Source: Roseibium aggregatum
Lineage (GTDB): Bacteria > Pseudomonadota > Alphaproteobacteria > Rhizobiales > Stappiaceae
Assembly: GCF_017309185.1 (NCBI RefSeq)
Contig: NZ_JAEKJZ010000004.1
Location: forward strand, 372,001 to 436,000
Length of the DNA stretch: 64,000 nucleotides
Reading direction: 5' to 3'
Made by a program: the position numbers and the translations under genes. The notes under the pieces are model-generated. The model was not told where the DNA came from and searched no databases. It saw only the letters and a list, made by a program, of their open reading frames with translations. Shown here in pieces: positions 17,142-36,575 of the stretch. Position 1 is the first letter of the stretch, and every line of letters starts with the position of its first letter.

Positions 17142-17218
17142 CCCGCTTCAGCCGAAAGAGGGGACTGTTCCGCCAAACCATAAAACACCATTGCGCGGAC
17201 AAAACATGGAGACTGGAA

Positions 17219-18325: not shown

Positions 18326-18370
18326 GTTTTTCAGGCTTGACCGGTTCTTCCGCCGGTTGAGAAAAACCGA

Positions 18371-18405
18371 GCCGGTCCGGAGGCGCTGCTTGCCTCCGGA
18401 CCGGC
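18371..18405 (+). terminator. 14-bp-stem hairpin after the PotD-like gene
   Basis: GCCGGTCCGGAGGC and GCCTCCGGACCGGC form a perfect 14-bp stem with a 7-base loop, 45 bases after the binding-protein stop and before the permease gene. No U-run follows. It probably stabilises the binding-protein message and limits read-through. Confidence 0.7.
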
Positions 18406-18560
18406 CCTGAAAACCGGCTTCCGAGATGTCCGCACAAGCGCCCGGCCCGGGAGGGACGGCCGTCGCGCAAGGCTGGTATCTTTTCAGGTCGCCGGGCAGT
18501 CGTTTGCGCAAGCCGATACCGGCCCTCAGGCCCGCGCTTGCCATTTTCGAAGGAAATAAA

Positions 18561-20344: not shown

Positions 20345-20346
20345 GA

Positions 20347-21453
20347 ATGGAAAACCTGCAACAAGACACGTCCCAGGAAATTGTCCGGCTCGACGCGATC
20401 AACAAGCGGTTCGGCGACACGGAAGCCCTGAAAAGCCTGACCATGTCAATCCGGGAAGGGGAGTTCGTGACCTTTCTCGGTCCGTCGGGCTGCGGCAAGT
20501 CGACCACCTTGCGCATTCTGGGCGGCTTCGAGACGCCCACCTCGGGCCGGGTGATCGTCAACGGCGAGGACGTCACGAAGCTTCCGCCCAACCGGCGCAA
20601 GGTGAACATGGTGTTTCAGGACTATGCGCTGTTTCCGCATATGACGGTTCGCCGCAACATCTCCTTCGGCCTGGAACTCAAGGGCCTCTCCAAGAGCCAG
20701 ATCGTTCAGCGCTGCGACGAGCTGATGGGCTTTCTGGAGCTGTCGGCCTATGCGGACCGTCTCCCCGATCAGCTGTCCGGCGGCCAGCGCCAGCGCGTGG
20801 CGCTCGCCCGCGCGCTCGCTCCCGATCCGGCGCTGCTGTTGCTGGACGAGCCTCTGGGGGCGCTCGACGCGAAACTGCGCGGGCAGGTTCAGGCCGAGCT
20901 GAAATCGATCCAGCGGCGGACCTCGAAAACCTTCTTCTTTGTTACCCACGACCAGGACGAGGCGCTGACCATGTCCGACCGCATCGTGGTGATGAACAAG
21001 GGCGTGGTCGAGCAGGACGGTACGCCGGAAGAGCTCTACTTCCATCCGTCCTCGCGCTTCGTCGCGGAATTCGTCGGTGAAACCAACCTGATCGAAGGTC
21101 ACGTAGATACCGTCAGCGGTTCCGACGTGACGCTCGACTGGCGGGGGCTGAAACTGGCCGGACGTCCGCCGGTCTCCGGTGGATTGGAGGCGGGCAGCAA
21201 CGTTGCCGCCTCGATCCGACTCGAAGGCCTGAAGCTGTCGCTCGACAAGCCCGAAGATCAGCCCAACTCGGTCTCCGTCCGCGTGTCCGGCCGCACCTTC
21301 AAGGGCAGCCGCACCGAGCTCGACCTTCAGGTGGAAAGCGCGCCGGAAATCTCGATGCGGGCCTATGTGGATACGGCTCTTGCCGAAGAACTCGGAGAAG
21401 CCCCCGTCTGGGCGAGCTGGTCGCAGGAAGCGATGGCGGTTCTCAGGGATTGA
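20347..21453 (+). CDS. ABC transporter ATP-binding protein (PotA-like)
   Basis: 368 residues starting MENLQQDTSQEIVRLD, two bases after the permease stop. Walker A GPSGCGKST near residue 48, signature LSGGQRQRVALARAL near 145, Walker B LLLLDEPLGALDAKLR near 168, and a C-terminal TOBE regulatory domain from about residue 285. Energises the PotB/C-like channel. The gene ends the operon; a strong inverted repeat lies 100 bp downstream. Confidence 0.95.
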   Translation: MENLQQDTSQEIVRLDAINKRFGDTEALKSLTMSIREGEFVTFLGPSGCGKSTTLRILGGFETPTSGRVIVNGEDVTKLPPNRRKVNMVFQDYALFPHMTVRRNISFGLELKGLSKSQIVQRCDELMGFLELSAYADRLPDQLSGGQRQRVALARALAPDPALLLLDEPLGALDAKLRGQVQAELKSIQRRTSKTFFFVTHDQDEALTMSDRIVVMNKGVVEQDGTPEELYFHPSSRFVAEFVGETNLIEGHVDTVSGSDVTLDWRGLKLAGRPPVSGGLEAGSNVAASIRLEGLKLSLDKPEDQPNSVSVRVSGRTFKGSRTELDLQVESAPEISMRAYVDTALAEELGEAPVWASWSQEAMAVLRD

Positions 21454-21724: not shown

Positions 21725-23203
21725 TTACCCGATCCGCGCGGCGACGCTTTTCACCTTGCAGTAGCTCTTGAGGCCCTCGAGGCCCTTTTCCCGGCCGAAG
21801 CCTGAGAATTTGTTGCCGCCGAAAGGCACTTCGATGCCACCGGCGAAATACTCGTTGATGTAGATCTGGCCGGCGTCGATCTCGCTCGCAAGCGAAAGAG
21901 CGTTGGAGATATCCTGCGTATAGATGCCGGCGACCAGGCCGTATTTGCTGTCGTTGGCAAGCTCCAGGGCATGAGCGGCATCCTCGGCGACCTGGACGGT
22001 CAGGACCGGTCCGAAAATCTCTTCCTGCACAAGTTCGTCATCGCAGGGGCGGTCGGCGACGATGGTCGGCTCGTAGAACCAGCCCTGACCGGTTTCCGGA
22101 TCGGCCGTGATCGCGCCGCCCGTCAGGATTTCGGCGCCGCGCTCGCGTGCACGGTCAATGAAGCCGGCGACCTTGCTCAAGTGTTCCTGCGAGTTGACCG
22201 GACCGAATTGCGGGTCCCGCAAACCATGGCCGATGGTCAGCGTCTTTGTGCGCGCGACCAGTTCTTCAAGGAAACGGTCGCGGATGCCGCGTTCGATCAC
22301 CAGGCGCGAGCCCGCGGAGCAGATTTGGCCGGCATTCTCGAAGATCGCGCCGAGAACGCCGGTGAGGGTCTGTTCCCAGTCGCAATCGTTCAGCACCACG
22401 ACGGGTGACTTGCCGCCGAGTTCAAGCACCACGCGTGTTATGTTGTCGGCCGCCGAGCGCATGACCTTCTGGCCGGTGACGACCGACCCGGTGAAAGTGA
22501 CCTGATCCACGTGCGGATGTGTCGTGAGCGGGGCGCCGACCTCGGCGCCCGTACCGGTGACCACATTGCAGACCCCGTCGGGCAAGCCCGCTTCGCTCAG
22601 GAGTTCCGCCAGAAGCAGCGCCGTGAAAGGGGTCTGCTCCGCGGGCTTGGCGACCACCGTGCAGCCGGCCGCGAGCGCCGGGGCAAGCCCTCTTGCGGTG
22701 GTGGAAATCGGGAAGTTCCACGGAATTATGTGTGCGGTCACGCCAACCGGCTCATAGACACTGTAACCCAGGTAGCCGTGAGGCAGCGGAAAGGTGTCGC
22801 CCTGAAGCTTGTCGCAGGCTCCCGCGTAGTATTCGAAAGAGCGCGCCGCGCCGTTCACGTCTCCAAGCGCCTCGTTCAAAGGCTTGCCGCAGTCCAGGGT
22901 CTCGACGATGGCAAGACGCTTCGCGTTGGCGCGGATGAGTTCGGCGGCCTTCAGCAGGATGCGCGCGCGTTCGGCGGCAGGCGTTTTGCGCCAGACGGTT
23001 TCAAAGGCCTCGCGCGCGCTTGCCACGGCCGCATCGACATCCGTCGCGTTGCCGGCGGCAAATTGTGCGAAGACGGTGCCGCGCCCGGGATCGAAGCTGT
23101 CCATCATCCGGCCGCTGCTGCCTTGAACGAAACAGCCGTCGATATAATGGCCCATGGGCAGACCGGTTACGGGCTTGCCGGCCAGAATGTCCTGAATGTT
23201 CAT
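21725..23203 (-). CDS. NAD(P)+-dependent aldehyde dehydrogenase
   Basis: 492-residue soluble aldehyde dehydrogenase. Catalytic Glu in VLELGGKSPVVV and catalytic Cys in NAGQICSAGSRL (about residues 260 and 295), cofactor motif FTGSVVTGQKVM near 240, and the family end PFGGNKFSGFGREKGLEGLKSY. ATG at 23203 gives MNIQDILAGKPVTGLPMGHY; upstream residues of the open frame belong to the neighbouring gene's antisense. One base after the racemase-family gene, so both are one unit under the box at 24362-24407. Probably oxidises an aldehyde from the oxidases of this cluster; resembles betaine-aldehyde/gamma-glutamyl-aminobutyraldehyde enzymes. Confidence 0.94.
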   Translation of the reverse strand: MNIQDILAGKPVTGLPMGHYIDGCFVQGSSGRMMDSFDPGRGTVFAQFAAGNATDVDAAVASAREAFETVWRKTPAAERARILLKAAELIRANAKRLAIVETLDCGKPLNEALGDVNGAARSFEYYAGACDKLQGDTFPLPHGYLGYSVYEPVGVTAHIIPWNFPISTTARGLAPALAAGCTVVAKPAEQTPFTALLLAELLSEAGLPDGVCNVVTGTGAEVGAPLTTHPHVDQVTFTGSVVTGQKVMRSAADNITRVVLELGGKSPVVVLNDCDWEQTLTGVLGAIFENAGQICSAGSRLVIERGIRDRFLEELVARTKTLTIGHGLRDPQFGPVNSQEHLSKVAGFIDRARERGAEILTGGAITADPETGQGWFYEPTIVADRPCDDELVQEEIFGPVLTVQVAEDAAHALELANDSKYGLVAGIYTQDISNALSLASEIDAGQIYINEYFAGGIEVPFGGNKFSGFGREKGLEGLKSYCKVKSVAARIG

Positions 23204-23204
23204 C

Positions 23205-24311
23205 TCAGTCGTTCCATGTGCTGATCTGGTACGCGGACTTTGCAAGCCATTCGGGATTGATCTCAACCCCCCAGCCCGGCGCGTCGGTGACGGTTGCCTT
23301 GCCGTCGACGATTTCATAGGGGTCGTTGACAAAGATCTGGTCCTGCCAGGGATAATAGTCGAGACCCTCGATGGAAAACTCGAGATATTTCCCGGCATTC
23401 GGGATGGCGCGCAGAAGGTGCATCGTGAACAGCGTCACCATGGACATGTTGGCGGCGTGCGGGGTGACCGGCATGCCGGCGGCCTCGGCCATGCGGGCGA
23501 CCCGCAGCGTGCGCGCGATGCCGCCCAGGTAACAGACGTCGGGCTGAAGCACATCGACGATCCGCCGGTCGATCATCGCCTTCCAGTTCGCCAGCATGCA
23601 GTCCTGCTCGCCGCCGGTGATGTCGATATCGAGGGCGTCGGTCACTTCCTTGGTCTGCTCGAACTCCCAATAGGGACAGGGCTCCTCGTAGTGGGAAATG
23701 CCGTTGTCCTGGAGCATCCGGCCGACCTCGATCGCCTTGTCGGGCGAGTAGCACGAGTTCGCGTCGACCAGAAGCGCGACGTCGTCGCCGAGTTCCTTGC
23801 GGATCAGCGGGACGATCTCTTCCGTCCGCCCGGGCCATTCGTCCTGATTGCGGCCCACCTCCGCGCCGATGCGGAACTTGAAGGCGTCGAAGCCGTTCTC
23901 GTCGCGCAGCCGCTTGAACCGGTCCGCTTCGTCGCGAGGCGTGATGTCGCGCTTCATCGAGGAGGCGTAGGCACGGAACTGCCCGGGCGTTCCGCCGATG
24001 AGTTCGCAGACCGGGCGCTGCTCCACCTTGCCGCGCAGATCCCAGAGCGCCGTGTCGACACCGCCCATCGCGCGCCTGAGATAGGCCCCCGGGAACTTGT
24101 GCTCCCGGTCACGGACGACATCGAGCATCTCGTCGATCTCGAAACAGTCCCAGCCCAGAACGTAAGGCGCGACCTGCCGGTGCAGGACCTTGGCGGTGAT
24201 GTCGGCGCAATAAGGTGCGACCTGTCCCCACCCCTGTGCGCCGTCGTCGGCCGTCACCCGCACGAAGCAGATGAATTCATTCGTGAAAGTTTCGATTTTT
24301 TTCAGTTTCAT
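23205..24311 (-). CDS. Mandelate racemase/muconate lactonizing enzyme family protein (enolase superfamily), copy 1
   Basis: 368 residues from ATG 24311 (MKLKKIETFTNEFICFVRV). Metal ligands are visible as LLVDANSCYS, HYEEPCPYWE and ITGGEQDC on successive strands, with DVCYLGG and VTPHAANMSM carrying the C-terminal Asp/His dyad, so it is a His/Asp-dyad member; the Lys position reads KFRIG. Such enzymes racemise or dehydrate acids such as aldonates, or isomerise N-substituted amino acids. Only about 51% of its neighbours' function can be guessed from context: it is coupled to an aldehyde dehydrogenase and controlled from the MocR-side promoter. Confidence 0.9.
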   Translation of the reverse strand: MKLKKIETFTNEFICFVRVTADDGAQGWGQVAPYCADITAKVLHRQVAPYVLGWDCFEIDEMLDVVRDREHKFPGAYLRRAMGGVDTALWDLRGKVEQRPVCELIGGTPGQFRAYASSMKRDITPRDEADRFKRLRDENGFDAFKFRIGAEVGRNQDEWPGRTEEIVPLIRKELGDDVALLVDANSCYSPDKAIEVGRMLQDNGISHYEEPCPYWEFEQTKEVTDALDIDITGGEQDCMLANWKAMIDRRIVDVLQPDVCYLGGIARTLRVARMAEAAGMPVTPHAANMSMVTLFTMHLLRAIPNAGKYLEFSIEGLDYYPWQDQIFVNDPYEIVDGKATVTDAPGWGVEINPEWLAKSAYQISTWND

Positions 24312-24361: not shown

Positions 24362-24407
24362 ATTGGCGTATCAGACATATCCATTTCGGAACTCTTTCCA
24401 GACCAAT
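24362..24407 (-). promoter_or_regulatory. MocR-type 46-bp box A (reads toward racemase copy 1)
   Basis: On the minus strand: ATTGGTCTG, 11 bases, GAAATGGATAT, then 15 bases ending in GCCAAT. It has the same length and internal spacing as three other boxes in this window. It sits between the divergent racemase-family gene and the mocR gene, so it can serve both activation of the catabolic unit and autoregulation. Confidence 0.75.
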
Positions 24408-24432
24408 TCGAGTCCGGCAAAAGGACGGAATC

Positions 24433-25908
24433 ATGAAACATTCGGCAGGTGCGCTGCTGTTTTCCATCAAGCTCGACCGCGAGGCACGCAAGGGGGTCGG
24501 GGTCCAGCTCTATATGGCGTTGCGCGATATCATCCTTTCGGGCGGACTACGCGCGGGCGACCGGCTTCCGGCGACGCGAATCCTGGCGCGGGAACTCGGC
24601 GTGTCGCGCACCACGGTGATCGACGCGCTCGACCGGCTCGTGGTCGAAGGCATGCTGGTGTCGCGTGTCGGGGCCGGCACATTCGTCAGCGATGCGCTTG
24701 AGGCGCAGCGCCCGGTCAACGAGGAGCCGAGGCCGGTGGAAAGCGGACGGAAGCCCCGGCTGTCCTACACGATCACCCATGCCGCTTCCAGCTACGCCCG
24801 GCGAACCTGGTTGCCGCATGAGGCGCGCGCCTTCATTACCGCTCTTCCCGCGCTCGACGCGTTTCCGATGACCCATTGGGCACGGCTTTCCGCCAGGCAT
24901 TTGCGCGGCTCACCGAGCGCCGTAATGGGCTATGGTGAGCCCAAGGGGCTGCGGGCCCTGCGCCGGGCCATTGCGACGCATCTCAGCGCGCTCAAGGGGA
25001 TCAGGTGCAACGAGGAACAGATTTTCATCACCTGCGGAGCGCAACAGGGGTTCGCGCTCATCGCAAGATTGCTGATGAATCCGGGTGAGAAGGTCTGGAT
25101 GGAGAACCCGGGGGCTTCCGGCGCGCGCAACGCCTTTCTGGCAGAAGGTGCGGAGCTGGTCCCTGTCGACGTAGACGAAGAGGGCATGGTCGTTGGCGAC
25201 GGCCTTTCGAAATCCCCCCACTTTCGGCTTGCCTTCGTCACCCCGACCCACCAGCAGCCGCTCGGTCACGTCATGTCCCTGGCGCGGCGTTTCGAGCTGC
25301 TGCGCGCAGCCGACGAGGCTCAGGCGCTGATCATCGAGGACGATTACGATGGCGAGTTCTATTACGGCAGCGCCCCGCAACCGACCCTTTACAGCACCGA
25401 CACGACAGGGCGGGTGCTTTATGTCGGGACCTTTTCGAAGTCGCTGTTCCCATCGTTGAGGCTCGGTTTCATTCTTGTTCCCGAACGGATGGTGGACGCA
25501 TTCGATCAGACCTTTTCCGCCTGGGCGAGCGGGCCGTCGACGGCGACCCAGGCGATCGTCGCCGACTTCATGGACGAAGGCTATTTCGCAACGCATATCC
25601 GGCTCATGCGGCGGCTTTACAAGGCAAGGTACGAGGCCTTGAAGGACGCGGCGAAAACCCTGCCTGAAACGGTCCGGCTCGACGACACGGCAAGCGGCTT
25701 TCATGCGGCTGCTTATCTCTCACCGGAAATCGATGCGCAGGAGGTCGTCGCCCAGGCGGCGAAAAAAGGTGTCATTCTTGCCCCGCTGTCGCGCTACTGC
25801 CTGGCGCCCACCGGTCTGAACGGCCTGGTCTTCGGTTTCGGCAGCGCACCTCCGGAAGAGCTGCGGCAGGGCGTTGAGGTCGTGCGGGATCTGCCCGCCT
25901 TTCGATAA
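24433..25908 (+). CDS. MocR-type regulator (GntR winged helix fused to PLP aminotransferase domain)
   Basis: 491 residues. N-terminal GntR helix-turn-helix at about 15-85 (VQLYMALRDIILSGGLRAGD, LARELGVSRTTVIDALDRLV), linker, then a fold-type-I aminotransferase domain with the PLP-contact blocks FVTPTHQQPLG, IIEDDYDGEFYY and the Schiff-base Lys in GTFSKSLFPSLRLG. All cofactor residues seem intact, as in GabR/PdxR/TauR. ATG at 24433 gives MKHSAGALLFSIKLD. MocR proteins bind direct repeats plus an inverted element and activate neighbours; the four 46-bp boxes of this cluster fit that pattern. Confidence 0.93.
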   Translation: MKHSAGALLFSIKLDREARKGVGVQLYMALRDIILSGGLRAGDRLPATRILARELGVSRTTVIDALDRLVVEGMLVSRVGAGTFVSDALEAQRPVNEEPRPVESGRKPRLSYTITHAASSYARRTWLPHEARAFITALPALDAFPMTHWARLSARHLRGSPSAVMGYGEPKGLRALRRAIATHLSALKGIRCNEEQIFITCGAQQGFALIARLLMNPGEKVWMENPGASGARNAFLAEGAELVPVDVDEEGMVVGDGLSKSPHFRLAFVTPTHQQPLGHVMSLARRFELLRAADEAQALIIEDDYDGEFYYGSAPQPTLYSTDTTGRVLYVGTFSKSLFPSLRLGFILVPERMVDAFDQTFSAWASGPSTATQAIVADFMDEGYFATHIRLMRRLYKARYEALKDAAKTLPETVRLDDTASGFHAAAYLSPEIDAQEVVAQAAKKGVILAPLSRYCLAPTGLNGLVFGFGSAPPEELRQGVEVVRDLPAFR

Positions 25909-25954
25909 ATTGGTCTGTTTGAAATGTTAAATTGGATATCTTAACCGGTCCATT
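25909..25954 (+). promoter_or_regulatory. MocR-type 46-bp box B (upstream of racemase copy 2)
   Basis: ATTGGTCTG, 11 bases, AAATTGGATAT, then 15 bases ending GGTCCATT. It begins on the first base after the mocR stop codon. CTAG follows 6 bases after the box, as in boxes C and D, where a -10 element would lie; the ATG of the next gene is at 26028. Confidence 0.78.
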
Positions 25955-26027
25955 CGTCCCCTAGTGTCTCGGCGGATTTCATAATTTTGGGACATTGCCT
26001 TCGGGCTCCCTCCGGAGAAGACTGAAC

Positions 26028-27227
26028 ATGCCAGTGATCGATCGTATCGAACTCTATTTCGTGAAGGCTCCCCTGCCGGCTCCCTTCGCGCCCTCCTGGA
26101 TGCCGGGCCTGGTGCGGGAAGCGATCACTTTCTATCTCGTCCGCTTCGTGACCGACGAAGGCGTCGAGGGCTGGAGCGCGTTCACGTCCGGAGGACGCGA
26201 GCGGGCGGGCCTCGGCGATACGCTGGCGAACCTGTTTCTGGGCGAGAACCCGGAGAATATCGACCGGCTTTGCGAGCGCATTCACATCATGGCCGTGGGC
26301 GGCAGCTTCAACTGGTGGCTTGAACCGGCCTTTTGGGACATCAAGGCCAAGATGGCGGGCCTGCCGCTCTACAAGCTTCTGGGCGGAACGCACGACCGCC
26401 TGAAACTCTACGCCTCCGGCGGAGAGCTCAAGGACACCGGGGCGCGTCGCGAGGAAGCGGAAACCCGCTACGCCGAAGGTTTCGAAACCATGAAGGTCCG
26501 CGTCCACGATTTCGACGAAAAGGTCGACATCGAACATATTTCGGATATCGCGCTCCACATGCAGGGCCGGATGAAGATCTCCGTGGACTGCAACCAGGCC
26601 TTCCGCCTGACCCAGTTCGCGGAAGCGCCGCAATGGTCTCTGGAGCGGGCCAAGCGGTTCGTTGATGCGGCGGCCGATGTCGGTCTTGCCTGGGTGGAGG
26701 AGCCGCTGTTCGGGGAGTGGCATGAGGAGATCGCCCGTCTCACGGCCTATTCGCGGGTTCCCATCGCCGGCGGAGAACTGCACGTCATGGGCGCGCCGGA
26801 ACTGATCAGAATGGCGAAGATGGGGTGCTACAACATCTATCAGCCCGACGCGATGTTCGCAGGCGGGGTGAAGCAGGGTCTGGACGTGGCGAAAGCCTGC
26901 CGCGATCTGGGTCTCAAGTTCACGCCGCATACCTGGACCAACGGTTTCGGTCTGATCGTCAACGCACATGTGCATGCGGCCTCCGGCTTCGCCGACGAGA
27001 CGCTGTTCGAATACCCGCTGGCGGAACCGGGCTGGGTTCCGGAAGGCCGGGATGCGATCATCAGGGAGCCGTTTCATCACGACCGGGGCTGGTTCAACAT
27101 GCCTGAGGCGCCGGGTCTCGGTTTCGAGATCGATCATGAAAAACTTGCCAGATATGGTCGTTGCTTCTTCAAGGCAAGCCGCCGGGAAGTCCACTGGATG
27201 CCTCAGGCGCTGGCGGAGATCGTTTAG
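26028..27227 (+). CDS. Mandelate racemase/muconate lactonizing enzyme family protein (enolase superfamily), copy 2
   Basis: 399 residues from ATG 26028, preceded by GGAGAAG. The metal ligands are in KISVDCNQAF, WVEEPLFGEW and IAGGELHV; MKVRVHDF supplies the KxR(H) region and FTPHTWTNGFG the catalytic His loop. It is only distantly similar to copy 1 (different lengths and motifs), so the two probably act on different intermediates or stereoisomers. Own promoter with box B. Confidence 0.9.
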   Translation: MPVIDRIELYFVKAPLPAPFAPSWMPGLVREAITFYLVRFVTDEGVEGWSAFTSGGRERAGLGDTLANLFLGENPENIDRLCERIHIMAVGGSFNWWLEPAFWDIKAKMAGLPLYKLLGGTHDRLKLYASGGELKDTGARREEAETRYAEGFETMKVRVHDFDEKVDIEHISDIALHMQGRMKISVDCNQAFRLTQFAEAPQWSLERAKRFVDAAADVGLAWVEEPLFGEWHEEIARLTAYSRVPIAGGELHVMGAPELIRMAKMGCYNIYQPDAMFAGGVKQGLDVAKACRDLGLKFTPHTWTNGFGLIVNAHVHAASGFADETLFEYPLAEPGWVPEGRDAIIREPFHHDRGWFNMPEAPGLGFEIDHEKLARYGRCFFKASRREVHWMPQALAEIV

Positions 27228-27294
27228 GGCAGGGGTCTTGGGCACGGTAAAGCGAGTGGTTCAGCGTTGTTCCACGTCTCGTTGCAGATGCCGG

Positions 27295-27340
27295 ATTGGT
27301 CTGGACCTTTTGTCAAATTGGATATGAGTCGTGGACCAAT
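27295..27340 (+). promoter_or_regulatory. MocR-type 46-bp box C (upstream of FAD oxidase/ABC unit)
   Basis: ATTGGTCTG, 11 bases, AAATTGGATAT, then 15 bases ending GGACCAAT; the outer ATTGG and CCAAT are inverted, the inner ATTGG is direct. CTAG follows after 6 bases (27347-27350). The nearest start is 27412. Elements 1 and 2 are identical to box B. Confidence 0.8.
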
Positions 27341-27411
27341 ACTGTTCTAGCTTTTTTCTGCGGTGCTCGGTGCGTCCGTCTTTTTCTCCGGCGCACGTTT
27401 AGGGGAACGGA

Positions 27412-28728
27412 ATGGCTGTCGTTGATCTTTCGAAAATTCGTCGTACTCCCTTTTGGTACGATCAACTGACGGACGCACCCGAGTTACCGGTCGAAGTGCC
27501 GCAAACGGTCGACGTGGTGGTGATCGGCGCGGGATATACGGGACTGAGCGCGGCGATCGCAACGGCGCGCGGTGGGCGCTCGACCCTCGTGATCGATGCG
27601 GAAGATCCCGGGTATGGCTGCAGCAGTCGCAATGGCGGCCAGATCAGCACCAGCGTGAAACCTTCGCTGGAAAAGCTTGCCGCGAAATTCGGTGATGAAA
27701 AGGCCCGTGCGATCCGCGGCGAAGGGGCCGCGGCCCTGAACTGGCTGGGCAGTTTCGTCGAGGCCGAAGCGCTGGACTGCGACTTCCGGCGCTCCGGGCG
27801 CTTCCATGCCGCCCATACACCCGCCCATTATGAGGAACTGGTGCGCGACGCGGACAAGATGCGGCGCGAGGAAGGCATTGAAACCTTTGCCGTGCCGCGC
27901 AGCGAGCAGCGCAAGGAACTCGGATCCGATTCCTATTTCGGCGGTGTGGTATTTTCCAAACACTGTTCCGTGCATCCCGCCAAGCTTTTGCGCGAATTTC
28001 TGCGCGTTGCCGTGTCTTCCGGCGCTGCGGTCGTCGGACGCTGCCCCGCGACCCGGATCGAAAAGACCGGGTCCGGTTTCAGGGTCCACACCGCCAAGGG
28101 GGTGGTTGAGGCCGGAAACGTGATTGTCGCCACCAACGGCTATACAACGAACATGGTTCCGTGGCTGCGCCGCCGGATCATTCCGATCGGCAGTTACATC
28201 ATCACCACGGAAGAGTTGCCGCAGGACGTCGTGGACGAACTTTTCCCGACAGACCGGATCGCCAGCGACACCTGCAAGGTTCTCTACTATTACCGGGCCA
28301 CACCCGACCGGAAGCGGATCGCGTTCGGTGGCCGGGTGCTTTCGGCCGAGTGCGATCCGGTTGAGGCGGCGCCTCATCTTTACAATCACATGTGCCGGAT
28401 TTTTCCGACACTGAAGAGCTTCGGGCTTTCTCACGTCTGGAAAGGCACCGTGGCCTACAGTTTCGACGAGCTGGCCCATACCGGCGTTCACGACGGTGTT
28501 CACTACGCGCTCGGGTATTGCGGGTCGGGCGTGTCGATGGCGAGCTATCTTGGCATGAAAGCCGGCCAGAAGGTGCTGGGTCTGGCCGAAGGCCGGACGG
28601 CGTTCGACGATCTCACCCATCCGACGCAGCTCTTCTACACGGGCAAGCCCTGGTTCCTGCCGGCGGCGGTCGCCTATTACCGGTGGATGGACACAAGACA
28701 GTGGCAACGGGCCGCGGCGCGGGCCTGA
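27412..28728 (+). CDS. FAD-dependent amine/amino-acid oxidoreductase (DAO family, PuuB-like)
   Basis: 438 residues. FAD-binding VDVVVIGAGYTGLSAAIATA near residue 33-52, then GCSSRNGGQISTS, a block typical of the gamma-glutamylputrescine oxidase and glycine/sarcosine oxidase branch of the DAO family; C-terminal YALGYCGSGVSMASYLGMK closes the FAD site. Such oxidases turn a primary or secondary amine to an aldehyde or imine plus H2O2 (or reduced quinone). The aldehyde dehydrogenase at 21725-23203 could take the product. First gene of the box C unit, followed after 100 bp by the Pot-type importer. Confidence 0.9.
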   Translation: MAVVDLSKIRRTPFWYDQLTDAPELPVEVPQTVDVVVIGAGYTGLSAAIATARGGRSTLVIDAEDPGYGCSSRNGGQISTSVKPSLEKLAAKFGDEKARAIRGEGAAALNWLGSFVEAEALDCDFRRSGRFHAAHTPAHYEELVRDADKMRREEGIETFAVPRSEQRKELGSDSYFGGVVFSKHCSVHPAKLLREFLRVAVSSGAAVVGRCPATRIEKTGSGFRVHTAKGVVEAGNVIVATNGYTTNMVPWLRRRIIPIGSYIITTEELPQDVVDELFPTDRIASDTCKVLYYYRATPDRKRIAFGGRVLSAECDPVEAAPHLYNHMCRIFPTLKSFGLSHVWKGTVAYSFDELAHTGVHDGVHYALGYCGSGVSMASYLGMKAGQKVLGLAEGRTAFDDLTHPTQLFYTGKPWFLPAAVAYYRWMDTRQWQRAAARA

Positions 28729-28828
28729 AGGGCAGAGCTTATCGTGCGGACCTGGTCGCCCGGACGAAGAATATAACCTGACCGAAGTCGCGTTCCAGAG
28801 CGGCGATTGTTCGATAGGAGGACTATTG

Positions 28829-29869
28829 ATGAAACTTAAAGCAACTTTCTCATTGGCGGCAGCGTTGCTTGCCACCACATCGATTGCCCAAGCGGACGAT
28901 CTGACGATCGCCTCCTGGGGCGGTTCTTATCAGGAAGCACAGAGCAAGGCCCTGTTCGAACCCGCCGAAAAGGCCATGGGCATCAAGGTCAAGCAGGAAA
29001 CCTACGGCGGCATGTCCGACGTCAAGCTGCAGGTTTCGACCGGTCAGGTGACGCTCGACATCGTCGCCAGCGGCTCCGGTTCCGCGGCGCGGGCCGGCGC
29101 GGAAGGCCTGCTTGAGGAACTCGACTACGACGTGATCGACGTGTCGAATTTCGGTCCGACGCTTTACTCCAAATACTGTGTCGGCGGCGATGTCTTCTCG
29201 ACCGTCTATGCCTGGAACACGGAAACCTACGGCGAGGACGGACCGCAGAGCTGGGCCGATTTCTGGGATGTCGAGAAATTCCCCGGCAAGCGCGCTTATC
29301 GCAACAAGGTCGCCGGGGCCCTTGAGCCGGCCCTCATGGCCGACGGTGTTGCGCCCGAGGATGTCTACAAGGTCCTGGATTCGGAAGAAGGCATTGAGCG
29401 CGCCCTGAACAAGATCCGCGAACTGCGTCCGCATATCGACGTATTCTGGTCCTCCGGCGCGCAGCAGGCCCAGTTGATGAAGGACGGCGAGGTCGACATG
29501 ACCACCGGCTGGAACGGCCGCTTCGACAACGCCAAGAAGGACGGAGCGAAGGTCGCCTATTCCTTCAATCAGGCACTCCTGGACTACGATTGCTTCGCCA
29601 TCCCGAAAGGGGCTCCGAACAAGGACCTCGCCATGAAGTTCCTGGCCGAAGTCTCCAAGCCGGAATACCAGGACGACCTGCCCAAATACATCACCTACGG
29701 TCCGACCAACGCGGCGGCTTACGAAACCGGCGTGATTTCCCCGGAAACCGCGGCCGGCCTTCCGTCTTCGCCTGAAAATGCGGCCATGCAGCTTCCGATT
29801 TCCCTGGAATGGTATGCGAAGTGGGAAACCGTCGCTTCGGAAATGTACCAGGAAATGATGACCGAGTAG
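28829..29869 (+). CDS. Polyamine-type ABC transporter substrate-binding protein (PotD-like)
   Basis: 346-residue periplasmic binding protein with a Sec signal (MKLKATFSLAAALLATTSIA, cleavage near AQADD). The mature part starts DDLTIASWGGSYQEAQSKAL, common to the spermidine/putrescine-like binding proteins of this type. ATG 28829 lies 7 bases after AGGAGG; a TTG one codon upstream is too close to it. Precedes its ATPase and permeases, separated by a 13-bp hairpin. Confidence 0.93.
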   Translation: MKLKATFSLAAALLATTSIAQADDLTIASWGGSYQEAQSKALFEPAEKAMGIKVKQETYGGMSDVKLQVSTGQVTLDIVASGSGSAARAGAEGLLEELDYDVIDVSNFGPTLYSKYCVGGDVFSTVYAWNTETYGEDGPQSWADFWDVEKFPGKRAYRNKVAGALEPALMADGVAPEDVYKVLDSEEGIERALNKIRELRPHIDVFWSSGAQQAQLMKDGEVDMTTGWNGRFDNAKKDGAKVAYSFNQALLDYDCFAIPKGAPNKDLAMKFLAEVSKPEYQDDLPKYITYGPTNAAAYETGVISPETAAGLPSSPENAAMQLPISLEWYAKWETVASEMYQEMMTE

Positions 29870-29918
29870 GGTTTCTTCCCGATCTCGGCCGAAGCCCGCT
29901 GCCGGGCGCCGGAGCACG

Positions 29919-29947
29919 GGACGTCCACTCGGTTCGAGTGGACGTCC
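29919..29947 (+). terminator. 13-bp-stem hairpin after second PotD-like gene
   Basis: GGACGTCCACTCG and CGAGTGGACGTCC form a perfect stem with loop GTT, 50 bases after the binding-protein stop. No U-run. Same placement as the hairpin in the first Pot-type operon, so it probably sets binding-protein excess. Confidence 0.7.
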
Positions 29948-30050
29948 GAGGCCCGATCGGCTTGAATGCGCCGGAGAAGAGCCCGCGCGCCGGAGGCGCT
30001 CGGGACATTCCGCGCCTGTCGTTTTCACACAATAACAAGGAGGGGCCCCT

Positions 30051-31139
30051 TTGCGGTCACATGACAGCGATGCGCTGCCGATTTCGATCAAGGGCGTCAC
30101 CAAGACCTATGGACCGGTCCATGCACTGGACGATGTGTCGCTCGAAGTGAACAGCGGCGAGTTCATCACGCTTCTCGGCCCTTCGGGCTCAGGCAAGACG
30201 ACCTTGCTGATGGTTATTGCCGGTTTCACGCGCCCGGACTGCGGCAGCCTGAAATTCGGCGACAGGGAAGTCATCCGCACGCCGCCGCATCTGCGCGATC
30301 TCGGCATGACGTTCCAGAGCTATGCGCTCTTTCCACACATGACCGTCGCCGGAAATGTCGCTTATCCCTTGAAACTGCGGAAACTTCCGAAGGCGGAAAT
30401 CGCGGAGAGGGTGGAACGGGCTCTCGACACGGTACAGCTCGGCGGCTATGGCGACCGGGGCATCGATCAGTTGTCCGGCGGTCAGAAGCAGCGTGTTGCG
30501 CTGGCCCGCTCCATTGTGTTCGAGCCGCGCATTCTCCTGATGGACGAGCCGCTTTCCGCGCTCGACAAGAAACTGCGCGACCAGATGCAGATCGAACTGC
30601 GCCACCTGCACGAGAAACTCGGCATGACGACGGTCTACGTGACCCATGACCAGCGCGAGGCGCTGACCATGTCCGACAGGATCGCGGTGGTGAACAAGGG
30701 CCGTATCATGCAACTCGCCACGCCGCGCGAGCTTTACGAACGTCCGGCCAACCGCTTCGTCGCGGATTTCATCGGCGATTCCACGTTTCTTCCCGTCGAG
30801 AAAACCGGCGTGGGAATCTCCTATAACGGCATGGCATTGACGTTCAGCGAGGCTCCGCCGGATACGGAAAAGCTGATCCTGATGATCCGGCCAGAGCGTA
30901 TCGTCCTGTCTCCCGAAGGTCCGCGCGAGGGCGTCAATAATTTTTCCGCCACGGCCGTCGAAGTTGTCTACCAGGGCGACAGCTTTCTTCTCCATGCCCG
31001 CCTGGACGATGGAACGCAGATCGCCTTGCGCGGCGGGGTGCGCGGGGCAAGCCTGTCGGCTCTCCCCAATGTGGGCGACACGGTCACACTGACCCTGGCG
31101 CCGGAAGACACGGTTCTGATCGACGGAAGCGAGGTCTGA
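30051..31139 (+). CDS. ABC transporter ATP-binding protein (PotA-like)
   Basis: 362 residues, probably from TTG at 30051, which lies 5 bases after AAGGAGGGG; nearby ATGs are out of frame. Walker A GPSGSGKTT near residue 43, signature LSGGQKQRVALARSI near 140, Walker B ILLMDEPLSALDKKLRDQ near 160, C-terminal TOBE region from about 280. Energises the permeases that follow immediately. Confidence 0.93.
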   Translation: MRSHDSDALPISIKGVTKTYGPVHALDDVSLEVNSGEFITLLGPSGSGKTTLLMVIAGFTRPDCGSLKFGDREVIRTPPHLRDLGMTFQSYALFPHMTVAGNVAYPLKLRKLPKAEIAERVERALDTVQLGGYGDRGIDQLSGGQKQRVALARSIVFEPRILLMDEPLSALDKKLRDQMQIELRHLHEKLGMTTVYVTHDQREALTMSDRIAVVNKGRIMQLATPRELYERPANRFVADFIGDSTFLPVEKTGVGISYNGMALTFSEAPPDTEKLILMIRPERIVLSPEGPREGVNNFSATAVEVVYQGDSFLLHARLDDGTQIALRGGVRGASLSALPNVGDTVTLTLAPEDTVLIDGSEV

Positions 31140-31140
31140 G

Positions 31141-32025
31141 ATGCAGGCGATCCGGGCAAACGAGACGGGACTGCGCGTAGACGAGAAACTTGAGAGGCTG
31201 AAGCTTTACGGTCTGAGTTCTCCCGCGCTTCTGCTGATCCTTGTCATTCTGGTCATTCCGGTCGGTTGGCTGTTTTACGTGTCCTTTATTGGCGGTGACG
31301 GTCAGTTTTCCCTTGAAAACTATCAGCGGATGATCAAGCGCAGTTCCTACATGCGGATCTTCCGCACGACTTTCGAAGTCAGCGTCGTCACGACGGCCCT
31401 TTGCATCGTCATCGGCTATCCGCTGGCCTACTTCCTGTCCCAGTTGCCCGCGCGGCTGGCGAACCTGTGCATGATCACGGTGCTGCTGCCGTTCTGGACG
31501 TCCCTGCTGGTGCGCACATACGCCTGGCTGGTGCTGTTGCAGAAAAAGGGTCTCGTCAACGACTGGGCGATCGCGCTCGGGCTGTGGGACGAACCCATCA
31601 AGATGGTCCACAACATGACCGGCACGCTGATCGGCATGGTCCACATCATGCTGCCGTTCCTGATCCTTCCCGTCTACGGCTCGATGAAGGCGATCGACCG
31701 GGATTACATGAAGGCGGCGTCCAATCTGGGAGCCAGTCCGAAAAGAGCCTTTTGGGATGTCTTCTTTCCCCTGACCCTGCCGGGTCTTTTCGCCGGCACG
31801 CTGATGGTCTTCATCCTGTGTCTGGGCTTTTTCGTCACGCCGGCGGTTCTGGGTGGCGGCAAGGTGATCATGGTGTCGATGAAGATCGTTTCCAACATCG
31901 AGCTCTTCGTCAGCTGGGGGGCGGCGAGTGCGCTCGGCGTGGTTCTGCTCGCCATGACGTTCGCGATCCTCTGGGTAGCATCCCGCTTCCTGAAACTGGA
32001 TCAGATCGCCGGGGGAGGTCACTGA
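31141..32025 (+). CDS. ABC transporter permease (PotB-like)
   Basis: 294-residue inner-membrane permease starting one base after the ATPase stop. About six membrane segments; EAA loop DYMKAASNLGASPKRAFWDV near residue 195 and FFVTPAVLGGGKVIMVSMKI near 235. Pairs with the downstream permease, whose ATG overlaps its stop (TGATG). Confidence 0.93.
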   Translation: MQAIRANETGLRVDEKLERLKLYGLSSPALLLILVILVIPVGWLFYVSFIGGDGQFSLENYQRMIKRSSYMRIFRTTFEVSVVTTALCIVIGYPLAYFLSQLPARLANLCMITVLLPFWTSLLVRTYAWLVLLQKKGLVNDWAIALGLWDEPIKMVHNMTGTLIGMVHIMLPFLILPVYGSMKAIDRDYMKAASNLGASPKRAFWDVFFPLTLPGLFAGTLMVFILCLGFFVTPAVLGGGKVIMVSMKIVSNIELFVSWGAASALGVVLLAMTFAILWVASRFLKLDQIAGGGH

Positions 32026-32852
32026 TGTTCAATTGGCTGAACCAGCCCGCGACCGAAACGCAGATTACGCACGGCCAGCGCCTGTGGCTCTATATCGTGG
32101 CCGTCGTCATCATGCTGCTGCTGGTGGCGCCGACGCTGATCGTGGTGCCGATGTCGTTTTCCGACAGCCAGTATCTGGAGTTCCCGCCGAAAGTCTGGTC
32201 CCTGCGCTGGTACGAGCATTATTTCGGCTCGTCGGAATGGATGCTGGCGACCTGGACGTCGCTCAAAGCCGCCTTTCTGACCATGCTGGTCGCGACCCCG
32301 GTCGGTGTCCTGGCGGCCTATGGTCTGCATGCGTCCAACGTACGGTTCGTCCGGGTCACCTTTCTGTTCCTGATCACGCCGATGATGGTGCCGCTGGTTC
32401 TCGTCGCCATCGGCGTGTTCTATGTGTATGTCCAGCTCGGTATCCTGTACACGGTCGGCGGACTGGTTCTGGCGCATTCGATCCTGGCTCTGCCGCTGGT
32501 GGTGATCGTCATCGGCTCGGCGCTGAAAAGCTACGACATGAGCCAGGAAAACGCAGCGCGCAGCCTCGGGGCTCCACGGTGGAAGGCCTTTTTGACGATC
32601 ACCCTGCCGCAGATCCGCTTCGCGGTGGTGACCGCAGCCCTGCTGGCATTTCTCACCTCCTTCGACGAGGTCGTGGTCGCCATGTTCATCTCGGGCGGCG
32701 ACAATCCGACCCTGACCCGCAACATGTTCAACGCGCTGCGCGACCAGATCGATCCGACGATCGCCTCGATCTCGACGATCATGATCTGCGTCACCACGTT
32801 CATGATGATCCTTGCGCAGCTGTTCGGCCAGCAGAAGAAAGCGCAGGACTGA
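32025..32852 (+). CDS. ABC transporter permease (PotC-like)
   Basis: 275-residue inner-membrane permease starting MFNWLNQPATETQITHGQR. EAA loop MSQENAARSLGAPRWKAFLT near residue 175, then FDEVVVAMFISGGDNPTLTR typical of PotC-like proteins of this second type. Translationally coupled to the previous permease by one shared base. Confidence 0.93.
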   Translation: MFNWLNQPATETQITHGQRLWLYIVAVVIMLLLVAPTLIVVPMSFSDSQYLEFPPKVWSLRWYEHYFGSSEWMLATWTSLKAAFLTMLVATPVGVLAAYGLHASNVRFVRVTFLFLITPMMVPLVLVAIGVFYVYVQLGILYTVGGLVLAHSILALPLVVIVIGSALKSYDMSQENAARSLGAPRWKAFLTITLPQIRFAVVTAALLAFLTSFDEVVVAMFISGGDNPTLTRNMFNALRDQIDPTIASISTIMICVTTFMMILAQLFGQQKKAQD

Positions 32853-32920
32853 GTTCAAACCGACCGCCGGGCGTGCGTCGCCCGGCCTGTTTCCTTCCAG
32901 ATTTTCCGCCGGAGCCATTC

Positions 32921-33286
32921 ATGATCGATCTGCTCACCTTCGCGAACCTTGCCGCGCAGCCGCTCGGTGCCTTCGCCCCGAAGCCCACGACCCTGACCGA
33001 GGGACAGGAGGAGGCTTCAAGCCTCCTTTGGACGTCCGCCGACGGTCACACGAAAATCGGTGTCTGGGAATGCACGCCCGGCCATTTCACCGCAGACCGG
33101 ACCAAGGCGGGCGAATACTGCCACATCCTGTCCGGACGCGCCTCCGTGACCAATGCCGACGGCAGCGGCACCCGCGAGATCGGACCCGGCGATCTTCTGG
33201 TGCTTCCGCAGGGCTGGACCGGCGAATGGGTGATCCACGAACACATGCGCAAGCTGTTCGTGATCGACGCCGCGCCGGAGAGTTGA
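32921..33286 (+). CDS. Small cupin protein (DUF861/EutQ-like)
   Basis: 121-residue single-domain beta barrel. The cupin box reads EYCHILSGRASVTNADG followed by IGPGDLLVLPQGWTGEW, as in the cupin_3 group that accompanies amine and opine catabolic genes. Metal ligands are partly kept (His in CHIL; the second-motif His is in WVIHEHMRK). 68 bp after the permease on the same strand, so probably last in the box C unit. It may bind or isomerise an intermediate; no activity can be assigned. Confidence 0.85.
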   Translation: MIDLLTFANLAAQPLGAFAPKPTTLTEGQEEASSLLWTSADGHTKIGVWECTPGHFTADRTKAGEYCHILSGRASVTNADGSGTREIGPGDLLVLPQGWTGEWVIHEHMRKLFVIDAAPES

Positions 33287-33327
33287 GCGCGGAGGTTGCC
33301 TCATGCGAAAATTAGAGAATTTGCCGG

Positions 33328-33353
33328 CCCGGTTTTGCGCAGCAAAAACCGGG
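33328..33353. terminator. Hairpin between convergent cupin and DadA-like genes
   Basis: CCCGGTTTTGC pairs with GCAAAAACCGGG (one bulged A) around a short loop. The A/T-rich inner arms give it some terminator character on either strand. It lies 41 bp after the cupin stop and 110 bp from the convergent gene's stop. Confidence 0.55.
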
Positions 33354-33463
33354 AAACAGTATCTCCGGTGAAGCTTTTTTGGCAGGCGCTTGCGTTTACC
33401 GGGTCCCTGTCTCCGCAGGGTCGACAAGAAACGGCAATGGACTCATCCGCATAAGTCCCGACC

Positions 33464-34705
33464 CTAAAACCGGTCCGGCCGATATGGCGTAAGGTTGGTG
33501 TTCGGCAGCCTGTCCGATGCCAGATCCGCGACCATCCGGCCGAGCTTGGGGCCGATGGTCAGACCGACATGCTGGCCCCCGTAGGCATGCAGGACATTCG
33601 GGGCTTTCGCGGATTCCCCGACGACCGGCAGGCTGTCCGGTGTGGTCGGCCGGCGCCCCATCCAGCTTTCCACCTTGTCGAAGTCAAGCGTGGGGTAAAC
33701 CCGCCGAACGGCCTTCTCGATGAGGTTGGGCGGTGCTTTGGCAGGCGGGCCCGAGATGCCGGCGAATTCAACAACGCCCGCGCCGCGCAGCGCATCCCGC
33801 ATCGGCGTGAGGACGATCTTGGCATCCGTCACCATATAGGGCTGCGGGGCTGTGAATTCCGGCTTGCCGATTGAGACATGATAGCCGCGCTCGGCTTCCA
33901 GCTTCATCTTGATGCCGAGCCTCTTCGCAATCGGGCCGGACCAGACGCCCGCCGTCAGAACGATCTTGTCCGCCTCAAGAACATCTCCACCTTCCAGAGT
34001 CACGAAGGGCGCGCTTCCGGGGGTGATGTCGGCAACACGTGCCTGACGGAAAATCCCGCCCAGGCTCAGGTGGTGGGCAAAGAGATCCGCCGCATAGTCT
34101 CCGGGAGACGACAGCCACTTGCAGTCGTCGAAGACGGTTGCGAATTGATAGGCCGGGCCAAGGTTCGGGTCCCGTTCCAGAAGCTGTTCGCGCGTCATCG
34201 GGACCGGCTCCAGCCCGTAACGCCGGCGGGTCTCGATGGTCAGCGTGTCTGACTCGTAGTCCTGTCGCTGCTTGTAGAGGGTGACGAGGTCGCCGCTTTG
34301 AATATGGCGTTCCGCCGGCGTTCCCGCCGCAAGCGCCAGATGCTGCTCATTAGTGTCGAAGGTGACTTGAGACAGTCCCTGAGAGATCTCCGCGATCCGT
34401 TCCTGCGTCAGATTGCGGATAAAGGGAACCAGCCACGGCAGAAGGCGGGGAAGGTAGGACCATCGCATGTAAAGCGGCGAGTCCGGGTCGAGAAGCATCG
34501 CCGGAGCCTTGCGGACCAGGGACGGAGCGGCGACCGGCATGACGGAGGTCCGGGCGAGCAATCCGGCGTTGCCGTAGGAGGACTGCTCCGGCGAGCCGGG
34601 ATGAACCGGATCGATCAGGGTCGTGGCCCAGCCTTCCCGGCGCAACCACTCGGCCGCTGCAAGCCCGGTGATGCCCGCGCCGACAATCAAGACTGACTTT
34701 TGCAT
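33464..34705 (-). CDS. FAD-dependent D-amino-acid dehydrogenase-like oxidoreductase (DadA type)
   Basis: 413 residues. N-terminal FAD motif SVLIVGAGITGLAAAEWLRR, then SSYGNAGLLARTSVMP and C-terminal MGRRPTTPDSLPVVG with YGGQHVGLTIGPKLGRMVAD, the pattern of DadA/glycine oxidase-like dehydrogenases. Deaminates an amino or imino acid and passes electrons to the quinone pool in this family. Divergent from the GMC gene across a 250-bp gap that holds box D, so MocR may act on it too. Confidence 0.88.
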   Translation of the reverse strand: MQKSVLIVGAGITGLAAAEWLRREGWATTLIDPVHPGSPEQSSYGNAGLLARTSVMPVAAPSLVRKAPAMLLDPDSPLYMRWSYLPRLLPWLVPFIRNLTQERIAEISQGLSQVTFDTNEQHLALAAGTPAERHIQSGDLVTLYKQRQDYESDTLTIETRRRYGLEPVPMTREQLLERDPNLGPAYQFATVFDDCKWLSSPGDYAADLFAHHLSLGGIFRQARVADITPGSAPFVTLEGGDVLEADKIVLTAGVWSGPIAKRLGIKMKLEAERGYHVSIGKPEFTAPQPYMVTDAKIVLTPMRDALRGAGVVEFAGISGPPAKAPPNLIEKAVRRVYPTLDFDKVESWMGRRPTTPDSLPVVGESAKAPNVLHAYGGQHVGLTIGPKLGRMVADLASDRLPNTNLTPYRPDRF

Positions 34706-34831
34706 ATTCGAAGCGCCCTGGTTCCTGAATCGTCTAAGTCATTAAAGGCCATAGCGTCCCGGCGACGGCAGGTCCATTCTGCCGGAACAATAAATGCCAA
34801 AGCCGGAAACGATGTGCTCGGGGCAGGTGTA

Positions 34832-34877
34832 ATGGTATGAGAACGATTTGAAAATGGATATGCAGACCAGACCAATC
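34832..34877 (+). promoter_or_regulatory. MocR-type 46-bp box D (between DadA-like and GMC genes)
   Basis: AATGGTATG, 11 bases, AAAATGGATAT, then 15 bases ending AGACCAAT. Read in reverse it also begins with a perfect ATTGGTCTG. CTAG follows 6 bases after the box (34884-34887) as in boxes B and C; the GMC start is at 34956. First element matches 7 of 9 bases. Confidence 0.72.
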
Positions 34878-34955
34878 TTTGCCTAGCTTGGCCGAGACCC
34901 AGGATCGCGAACGCTGAACCTCGGTACGATGCCCGCTCGATATCCAGGATGCCCC

Positions 34956-36575
34956 ATGTCGGAATTTGACTTTATTGTCGTCGGTGCCGGATCGGCCGGT
35001 TGCGCGGTGGCCAACCGGTTGACGGAAAACGGAAAATACAGCGTGCTTCTGCTCGAAGCGGGTGGCAGCGACCGCAATTTCTGGATCTGGATGCCGATCG
35101 GTTACGGCAAGACCTTCTTCCGGAAAAGCGTCAACTGGATGTATTCCACCGAGCCGGTCACGGCCTTGAACAACCGCACCTCCTACTGGCCGCGCGGCAA
35201 GGTGCTGGGCGGGTCCAGTTCCATCAACGCCATGGTCTATGTCCGGGGACAAAGAGAAGACTTCGACGGTTGGGAACAGATGGGCAATCCCGGCTGGGGC
35301 TGGGAGAAAGTGCTGCCCTATTTCAAGAAAATGGAAACGAACGACCGCGGCGCGGATGCCTTTCGCGGTGGCGATGGCCCGGTTCATGTGAAGACGACCG
35401 ACGGTGACCGTCACCCGCTCTGCGAGACGTTTTTCGAGGCGGGCGGGCAGTTGCAGTTTCCCTATAACGCGGACTTCAACGGAGCGAGCCAGGAAGGCGT
35501 CGGCGCCTACCAGATGACGGTCAAGGACGGGTTGCGCATGTCGGCGGCGCGGGCCTATCTCGCTCCGGCACGGGGGCGTATGAACCTGAAGATCGAAAGC
35601 CATGCTCATGCGACGGCGATCCTGTTCGACGGCAAGCGTGCGACGGGCGTGGCGTACCGTCAGGGCGGTGTCGACAGGAAGGCGGTTGCGCGCAGGGAAG
35701 TCATTTTGTGCGCCGGGGCGATCAATTCGCCGCAACTGCTTCAGCTCTCGGGTGTCGGGCCCGGCGGCCTGTTGCGCGGCAAGGGAATAGAGACCGTTCA
35801 TGATCTGGACGGAGTCGGGCGCAACCTCCAGGACCATCTCTGCGTCGACTATCTGTACCGTTCGAAAGCGTCGACCTTGAACGAGCAGCTCAATCCCTGG
35901 TACGGCAAGCTTTGGCAGGGGATGAAGTATCTCGCCACACGGCGCGGGCCACTGTCGCTCGGTCTCAACCAGGCCGGCGGTTTCGTAAAATCCCGGCCCG
36001 ATCTGAAGAGCCCGAACATCCAGCTGTTCTTCTCGCCGGTGAGCTACACCAAGGCTCCCGAAGGCGAACGGCCCTTGATGAATCCGGACCCGTTTCCCGG
36101 GTTTCTGCTTTCCGGGCAGCCGACGAAACCGTCGAGCCGGGGGCATCTTCAGATCCGCTCGTCCGACCCCTTCGAGGCGCCCGAGATCCATCCGAATTAT
36201 CTTGCCACCGACCACGATATCCAGGAACTGCTCGAGGCGGCGAAGATCTTGCGTCAGCTCGCGCAGGCTCCGGCGCTTGCCGATATTATCGAAGCTGAGA
36301 TCGAACCCGGCCTCCACATTCAGACCGACGAAGAGTTCATCGCCGATCTCCGGGAACGGGCCATCACCGTGTTTCATCCGGCGGGTACCTGCCGCATGGG
36401 GCCGGACGCGCAAACCGATGTGGTCGATGCCCGGCTGCGGGTTCACGGTATCGAAGGGCTTCGGGTCGCCGACGTCTCCATCTTCCCGACGCTGACCTCC
36501 GGCAACACCAACGCACCCGCCATCATGGTGGGCGAAAAGGCGGCCGATCTCGTTCTCGAGGATCTTGCCGACTGA
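34956..36575 (+). CDS. GMC family FAD-dependent alcohol dehydrogenase (choline dehydrogenase-like)
   Basis: 539 residues. FAD motif DFIVVGAGSAGCAVANRL at 5-22, GMC signature 1 PRGKVLGGSSSINAMVYVRG near 83-102, signature 2 CAGAINSPQLLQLSGVGP near 245-265, catalytic His in ITVFHPAGTCRMG and the closing NTNAPAIMVGEKAADLV. Oxidises primary alcohols (choline-type, polyethylene glycol or sugar alcohols in the family). Under box D and next to an aldehyde dehydrogenase cluster, an alcohol to aldehyde step is likely. Confidence 0.93.
   Translation: MSEFDFIVVGAGSAGCAVANRLTENGKYSVLLLEAGGSDRNFWIWMPIGYGKTFFRKSVNWMYSTEPVTALNNRTSYWPRGKVLGGSSSINAMVYVRGQREDFDGWEQMGNPGWGWEKVLPYFKKMETNDRGADAFRGGDGPVHVKTTDGDRHPLCETFFEAGGQLQFPYNADFNGASQEGVGAYQMTVKDGLRMSAARAYLAPARGRMNLKIESHAHATAILFDGKRATGVAYRQGGVDRKAVARREVILCAGAINSPQLLQLSGVGPGGLLRGKGIETVHDLDGVGRNLQDHLCVDYLYRSKASTLNEQLNPWYGKLWQGMKYLATRRGPLSLGLNQAGGFVKSRPDLKSPNIQLFFSPVSYTKAPEGERPLMNPDPFPGFLLSGQPTKPSSRGHLQIRSSDPFEAPEIHPNYLATDHDIQELLEAAKILRQLAQAPALADIIEAEIEPGLHIQTDEEFIADLRERAITVFHPAGTCRMGPDAQTDVVDARLRVHGIEGLRVADVSIFPTLTSGNTNAPAIMVGEKAADLVLEDLAD

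Follow-up and report, generated by a model that had tools for sequence, protein, structure and literature searches.

A putative MocR-type regulon with a three-element operator in Roseibium aggregatum

In the available text of the comparative analysis by Suvorova and Rodionov (2016; PMC5320631), repeats were reported in most of the reconstructed MocR regulons, and two direct repeats with one inverted repeat formed the commonest arrangement (32%). According to the introduction of that paper, the apo form of PdxR from B. clausii prefers direct repeats and its pyridoxal 5'-phosphate (PLP)-bound form prefers inverted ones. Here, we describe a mocR gene and four 46-bp boxes around it in a 64,000-nucleotide stretch of the R. 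aggregatum genome (contig NZ_JAEKJZ010000004.1, positions 372,001–436,000; hereafter the window). With a probability of about 0.85 to 0.9, the boxes would be the operators of the adjoining MocR-type regulator and the four units would form its regulon. These units are predicted to be (i) MR1 with ALDH, (ii) MR2, (iii) DAO1-SBP-ATPase-PermB-PermC-cupin, and (iv) GMC, and together they would take up and oxidise an amine or amino compound.

The predicted regulator belongs to the MocR subfamily of GntR regulators, with an N-terminal GntR winged helix (PF00392, 63.2 bits against a cut-off of 27) and a C-terminal aminotransferase class I/II domain (PF00155, 80.8 against 19.7). The candidate PLP-binding lysine K336, within an FSKS stretch, had a frequency of 1.0 in 60 thinned orthologues taken from 92 full-length matches and is presumably the Schiff-base lysine. 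The top NCBIfam model by score was that of the rhizopine MocR (NF052281), at 433.6 bits below its cut-off of 650; the PdxR model was passed (NF052282, 394.4 against 320), and the scores for GabR (NF052285, 255.2 against 600) and EhuR/EnuR (NF052286, 159.9 against 480) fell short. The best solved match to MocR was 7PQ9, an entry named PLP-dependent aminotransferase family protein, which we take to be B. clausii PdxR although its name does not say so.

As far as the available text of PMC5320631 goes, the locus shares with the MocR/GabR subfamily the domain layout, the TGG core, direct repeats spaced by two helix turns, an inverted third box, and adjoining catabolic and transport genes, but its box sequence and target set match no regulon named there. 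It resembles PdxR of B. clausii and C. glutamicum in passing the PdxR model and in the mixed direct and inverted operator described in the same text. However, none of the four boxes in the genome, all of which were checked, is at a gene for vitamin B6 synthesis or salvage; all are at catabolic or transport units, and the regulator was therefore not filed as PdxR. The rhizopine MocR of Sinorhizobium, as presented in the available part of PMC10107442, is likewise one regulator of separate promoters in a catabolic region, but its proposed box, AAAGYGGYTCT repeated with a 13-bp spacer, is a different sequence. The ectoine regulators EnuR/EhuR are also MocR-family proteins of alphaproteobacteria with a transporter-catabolism regulon; they differ in the consensus operator, given as ATTGT-N6-ACAAT in the available part of PMC8739950, and in the missed model cut-off. 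Literature searches for MocR together with mandelate racemase returned no paper, those by the PDB codes of MR1 relatives returned none on the topic as judged by titles, a search for the cryo-electron microscopy of PdxR turned up none among the papers listed, and one on the enzyme family gave nothing useful.

Four boxes of one layout

The window contains four ATTGG...CCAAT-type 46-mers with an identical spacing of 8 + N11 + 11 + N10 + 5, and the presence of four boxes with one layout is confirmed. The first-pass annotation had reported all four with one shared layout; box 4 alone had to be shifted by one base (Table 1). Half-sites 1 (TTGGTCTG) and 2 (AAWTGGATAT) repeat in the same direction at a distance of 22 bp (two helix turns), and half-site 3 (CCAAT) is inverted relative to both. 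Two direct and one inverted element make up the commonest MocR motif and a PdxR-like one.

The three-element pattern TTGGTCTG-N11-RAAWTGGATAT-N10-CCAAT, with ≤3 mismatches allowed, had these four boxes as its sole matches in the 6.12-Mb genome, and its reversed control gave no match. The two-element pattern (≤3 mismatches) matched four times in the window, where shuffled sequence predicts 0.03 matches, and only at the same four boxes genome-wide; its reversed control gave three matches in the genome, so this pattern alone is barely specific. Furthermore, a sequence-only model was built from 35 boxes found in 16 other genomes, with none from the R. aggregatum genome studied. It ranked the four window boxes first (E = 7.1e-8, 1.0e-6, 1.7e-6, and 1.0e-5), and the next match, among the 150 of 1015 first-look candidates that were scored, was a partial one (model positions 2–29 of 51; E = 0.28). 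Random recurrence of the spaced box, which would have spoken against a regulon, was therefore seen neither in the three-element search nor in the model scan. Across 70 distinct boxes, the information was concentrated in the three half-sites and was near zero at most spacer positions. A recent duplication of promoters was rejected because the spacers between the half-sites have diverged.

Boxes and mocR in related genomes

Of the 45 genus genomes searched, 28 have a mocR orthologue (58–100% identity), and the same 28 carried boxes at E ≤1e-3, 69 in total; the best match in the 17 genomes without mocR was partial (E = 0.007). The search of family genomes for the box beside mocR orthologues, which had been proposed as a check, covered 87 genomes including those 45, with mocR in 39 (E ≤1e-100) and boxes in 40. 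At E ≤1e-3, boxes occurred in 39/39 genomes with mocR versus 1/48 without. Ten of the 40 genomes with boxes had contributed to the model and 30 had not. The single exception, G081 (L212, G081:C3, 9547–12616), represents a regulator lost in nature. No mocR was found between its two remaining boxes, which are separated by 390 bp; the third half-site is broken in one of them, the divergence of the other is similar to that in the relative G041, and ALDH is spread over two frames. In G436 (L213, G436:C35, 2370–17020), one of the 39, mocR is split over three frames; GMC, DAO2, ATPase, and ALDH of its four-box cluster were likewise seen to be split, which may reflect an assembly fault or decay.

The four boxes and the gene order of the window recur in G237 of the same genus and in G204 of another family of the order. 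Most other mocR-bearing genomes of the genus show a second layout, in which one box faces MR1-ALDH and another, after mocR, faces ATPase-permease-permease-GMC-DAO1. GMC and DAO1 are thus boxed separately in the window and under one box elsewhere, so the box has stayed with the gene set as genes were rearranged. Of the 69 genus boxes, 60 are in the mocR cluster, two lie on separate contigs in G418, which is fragmented, and seven are unlinked, that is, on another contig or >300 kb away from mocR. Six of these seven face an MR2 or SBP-transporter orthologue: five stand 86–88 bp upstream of MR2 orthologues (G365, G271, G402, G406, and G417), and the sixth is upstream of the SBP transporter unit in G416:C61. 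The seventh, on the same contig, has no regulon gene in front. MR2 was found in 8/45 genus genomes, all with mocR, and a box lies upstream of it in seven; in the eighth, G418, MR2 is at the contig end. The co-occurrence of mocR and boxes, the four-box order in G237 and G204, and the unlinked target boxes together support the earlier claim that one MocR probably controls all four units; in its main points, the first-pass annotation was correct.

The assignment of box 4 to GMC also held. In G418 (L114), the box and GMC are together and the divergent gene DAO2 was not found; in G416:C61, GMC was not found, DAO2 remains, and the box is worn, with an altered spacer and half-site (E = 0.007). As the box persists with GMC without DAO2 and wears without GMC, DAO2 was rejected as the gene served. 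Besides this worn GMC-type box, the G416 locus (L110, G416:C61, 7276–13925) was seen to hold a stray box without a regulon gene in front and a second ABC-cupin-DAO2 unit that is free of mocR and has a box of its own.

Across 397 genomes of the order, the pattern at ≤3 mismatches was found in 17 and a reversed-control match in one (G208). The match lies beside regulon genes in 15 of the 17, the placement in G070 being judged from a 3-kb piece, and it does not in G355 and G390. The G390 match is inside an open reading frame that looks RlpA-like by eye. When the exact pattern was scanned in a collection with one genome per species, 93 stretches were obtained, of which 80 are listed, and the following counts refer to those 80. 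The fetched piece held mocR at 70 loci; 77 held MocR, MR1, MR2, GMC, or DAO1, and two further loci (L133 and L186) held transporter genes. The remaining one, L181 (Aquibacillus koreensis, 3700–3744), is an exact match that has no regulon gene within 8 kb; it may be a chance match or a stray contig, the chance expectation for the whole collection being about 0.5 match by hand estimate. Several genomes gave two loci and some overlap with the genus, family, and order searches, so these counts are not independent. The taxa include Roseibium, Stappia, Hoeflea, Martelella, Ruegeria, Roseovarius, and Azospirillum, and one record is from Alcaligenaceae, with a MocR of 48% identity.

Promoter layout and the reading of the boxes

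Downstream of the box, T53, A54, and T58 were conspicuous. Boxes were grouped with 40 downstream bases into 54 clusters (≤75% alike). A −10-like TANNNT starts at box position 52–54 in 41/54 clusters, whereas at 28 other offsets it was seen in 0.9 clusters on average and in no more than 3. With TANNNT taken as the −10, half-site 1 falls at about −64 to −57, half-site 2 at about −44 to −35, and half-site 3 at about −24 to −20. Because the hexamer is at a fixed distance after the box, half-site 3 is placed within the promoter spacer, and half-site 2 is predicted to occupy the place of the −35. The −35 matches with this −10 reached at most 3/6 at spacings of 16–18 in boxes 2–4.

The apo and PLP-bound repeat preferences of PdxR, as given in the introduction of PMC5320631, were applied to this half-site geometry and led to the proposal of a switch. 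A MocR dimer on half-sites 1 and 2 would recruit RNA polymerase and activate the promoter, and a dimer reaching half-site 3 would block the polymerase and repress it. The balance would be set by an effector or by the PLP state, as proposed for B. clausii PdxR. MocR bound at box 1 would also cover the start of its own gene and could thereby regulate itself. By analogy, we consider such a PdxR-like switch at the boxes plausible, at slightly under even odds. The wider proposal is more tentative: that a single operator design, with half-site 3 in the −35/−10 spacer, lets the same protein activate and shut the same promoter according to effector state, in a mainly alphaproteobacterial regulon for an undescribed catabolic pathway. 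The kind of switch is already known, and the circuit itself seems to be uncharacterised.

Comparative genomics strongly supports the operator interpretation; binding, polarity, effector, and autoregulation we infer. Several observations weigh against it or against its details. Since mocR and most boxes adjoin, their co-occurrence is partly linkage and the seven unlinked boxes are its independent part; the family searches were moreover run with stricter filters. In box 4, two bases of the first element deviate (ATGGTATG), and the third element of box 2 is CCATT. Box 1 has no −10-like hexamer, unlike boxes 2, 3, and 4, and box 2 has a 4/6 match to the −35 at 15-bp spacing. In many relatives, the MR1-facing box has 3–5 mismatches to the window pattern, and G181 (L044) and G038 (L045) each yielded just one box (≤5 mismatches). 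In G434 and G458, two of the family genomes examined, the transporter-facing box has a degraded half-site 1, so this half-site is not strictly needed. The activate/repress switch is drawn from geometry and analogy, and the orthologue group may already sit among the unassigned groups of PMC5320631, as far as its available text can tell.

The main rival accepts the boxes as MocR operators and takes MocR for a plain repressor freed by an inducer, without activation, as EnuR is. Half-site 3 in the −35/−10 spacer would suit it, as would the repressor EnuR, whose operators overlap promoter core elements (available part of PMC8739950). However, half-sites 1 and 2 stand upstream of the core promoter at two-turn spacing, and the poor −35 suits activation, so we regard this reading as unlikely. 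That the boxes are chance repeats is next to impossible: the reversed-control matches of the two-element pattern and in G208, and the order-wide matches away from regulon genes, speak for it, but it was rejected on the three-element genome search and the scan with the relatives-only model, and conservation across families also opposes it.

Another transcription factor encoded elsewhere could read the boxes, with mocR as a bystander or a target. The binding of MocR to the boxes is a prediction from sequence, and the genome has further MocR-like proteins; mocR, earlier called lone, is so locally, but at least three other two-domain matches (35, 33, and 27% identity) are present in the genome. 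This explanation is nevertheless very improbable in view of the family-wide agreement of boxes with mocR, the decayed state of the G081 exception, and the presence of mocR in the fetched piece at most loci of the wider scan. Equally improbable is that control by MocR is limited to its neighbour (MR1 or MR2), with the outer boxes as duplicated relics. One box of G416 (C61:115275), which faces no regulon gene, is such a relic, but the half-sites and their spacing are kept while the spacer sequences have diverged, all four box positions are kept in G237 and G204, and unlinked MR2 genes retain their box.

Genes of the four units

The predicted regulon genes and promoter features are given in Table 1. 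The first-pass annotation had spoken of two racemase copies; MR1 and MR2 are only 25% identical with different Pfam and PDB neighbours, and are distinct enzymes. Box 1 does face MR1, as stated there, but its unit also holds ALDH, which is beside MR1 in the same order in most relatives examined. The four solved structures very close to MR1 carry generic names only. A further ABC uptake cluster, which includes a dehydrogenase-like gene, was seen at 16029–21453 of the window, just before ALDH; its permease and ATPase were scanned, and no box was found there.

Table 1. Putative operators, −10-like hexamers, and genes of the predicted regulon (window coordinates).
Feature	Position	Strand	Remark
Box 1, putative MocR operator	24362..24407	-	faces MR1-ALDH; within the 121-bp gap between MR1 start codon and mocR
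Box 2, putative MocR operator	25909..25954	+	immediately 3' of mocR stop codon; 73 bp upstream of MR2 start codon
Box 3, putative MocR operator	27295..27340	+	DAO1 start codon 71 bp downstream
Box 4, putative MocR operator	34831..34876	+	52 or 79 bp upstream of two possible GMC start codons
−10-like hexamer TAGTGT (box 2)	25962..25967	+	box position 53
−10-like hexamer TAGCTT (box 3)	27348..27353	+	box position 53
−10-like hexamer TAGCTT (box 4)	34884..34889	+	box position 53
ALDH, aldehyde dehydrogenase	21725..23203	-	starts 1 bp after MR1; presumably in the same operon
MR1, enolase-superfamily (MR_MLE) enzyme	23205..24311	-	nearest solved relatives 3T8Q, 3U4F, 3TCS, 3T9P
mocR	24433..25908	+	491 amino acids; GntR winged helix and aminotransferase-like domain; presumed box reader
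MR2, second, different MR_MLE enzyme	26028..27227	+	domain matches; compared with MR1
DAO1, FAD-dependent amine/amino-acid oxidoreductase	27412..28728	+	family-model matches
SBP, PotD-like ATP-binding cassette (ABC) solute-binding protein	28826..29869	+	family-model matches
ABC ATPase, TOBE domain	30051..31139	+	family-model match
PermB, PotB-like ABC permease	31141..32025	+	PotB model score below cut-off
PermC, second permease	32025..32852	+	name from position and conserved gene order
EutQ-like cupin	32921..33286	+	family-model match
GMC oxidoreductase, choline-dehydrogenase-like	34929..36575	+	alternative start 34956

From these assignments, the pathway would combine PotD-type uptake, an amine oxidase, GMC and aldehyde dehydrogenases, and two different MR_MLE enzymes. 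An uncharacterised regulator gains a defined set of targets and a directly testable promoter layout. The phased −10 and the natural variants, such as the worn half-site 1 in G434 and G458, make activation versus repression at three-box MocR operators accessible to testing. The MR1 enzyme family (3T8Q, 3U4F, 3TCS, and 3T9P) is now tied to a transporter and oxidases, and the inducer of MocR would therefore point to the substrate of the pathway.

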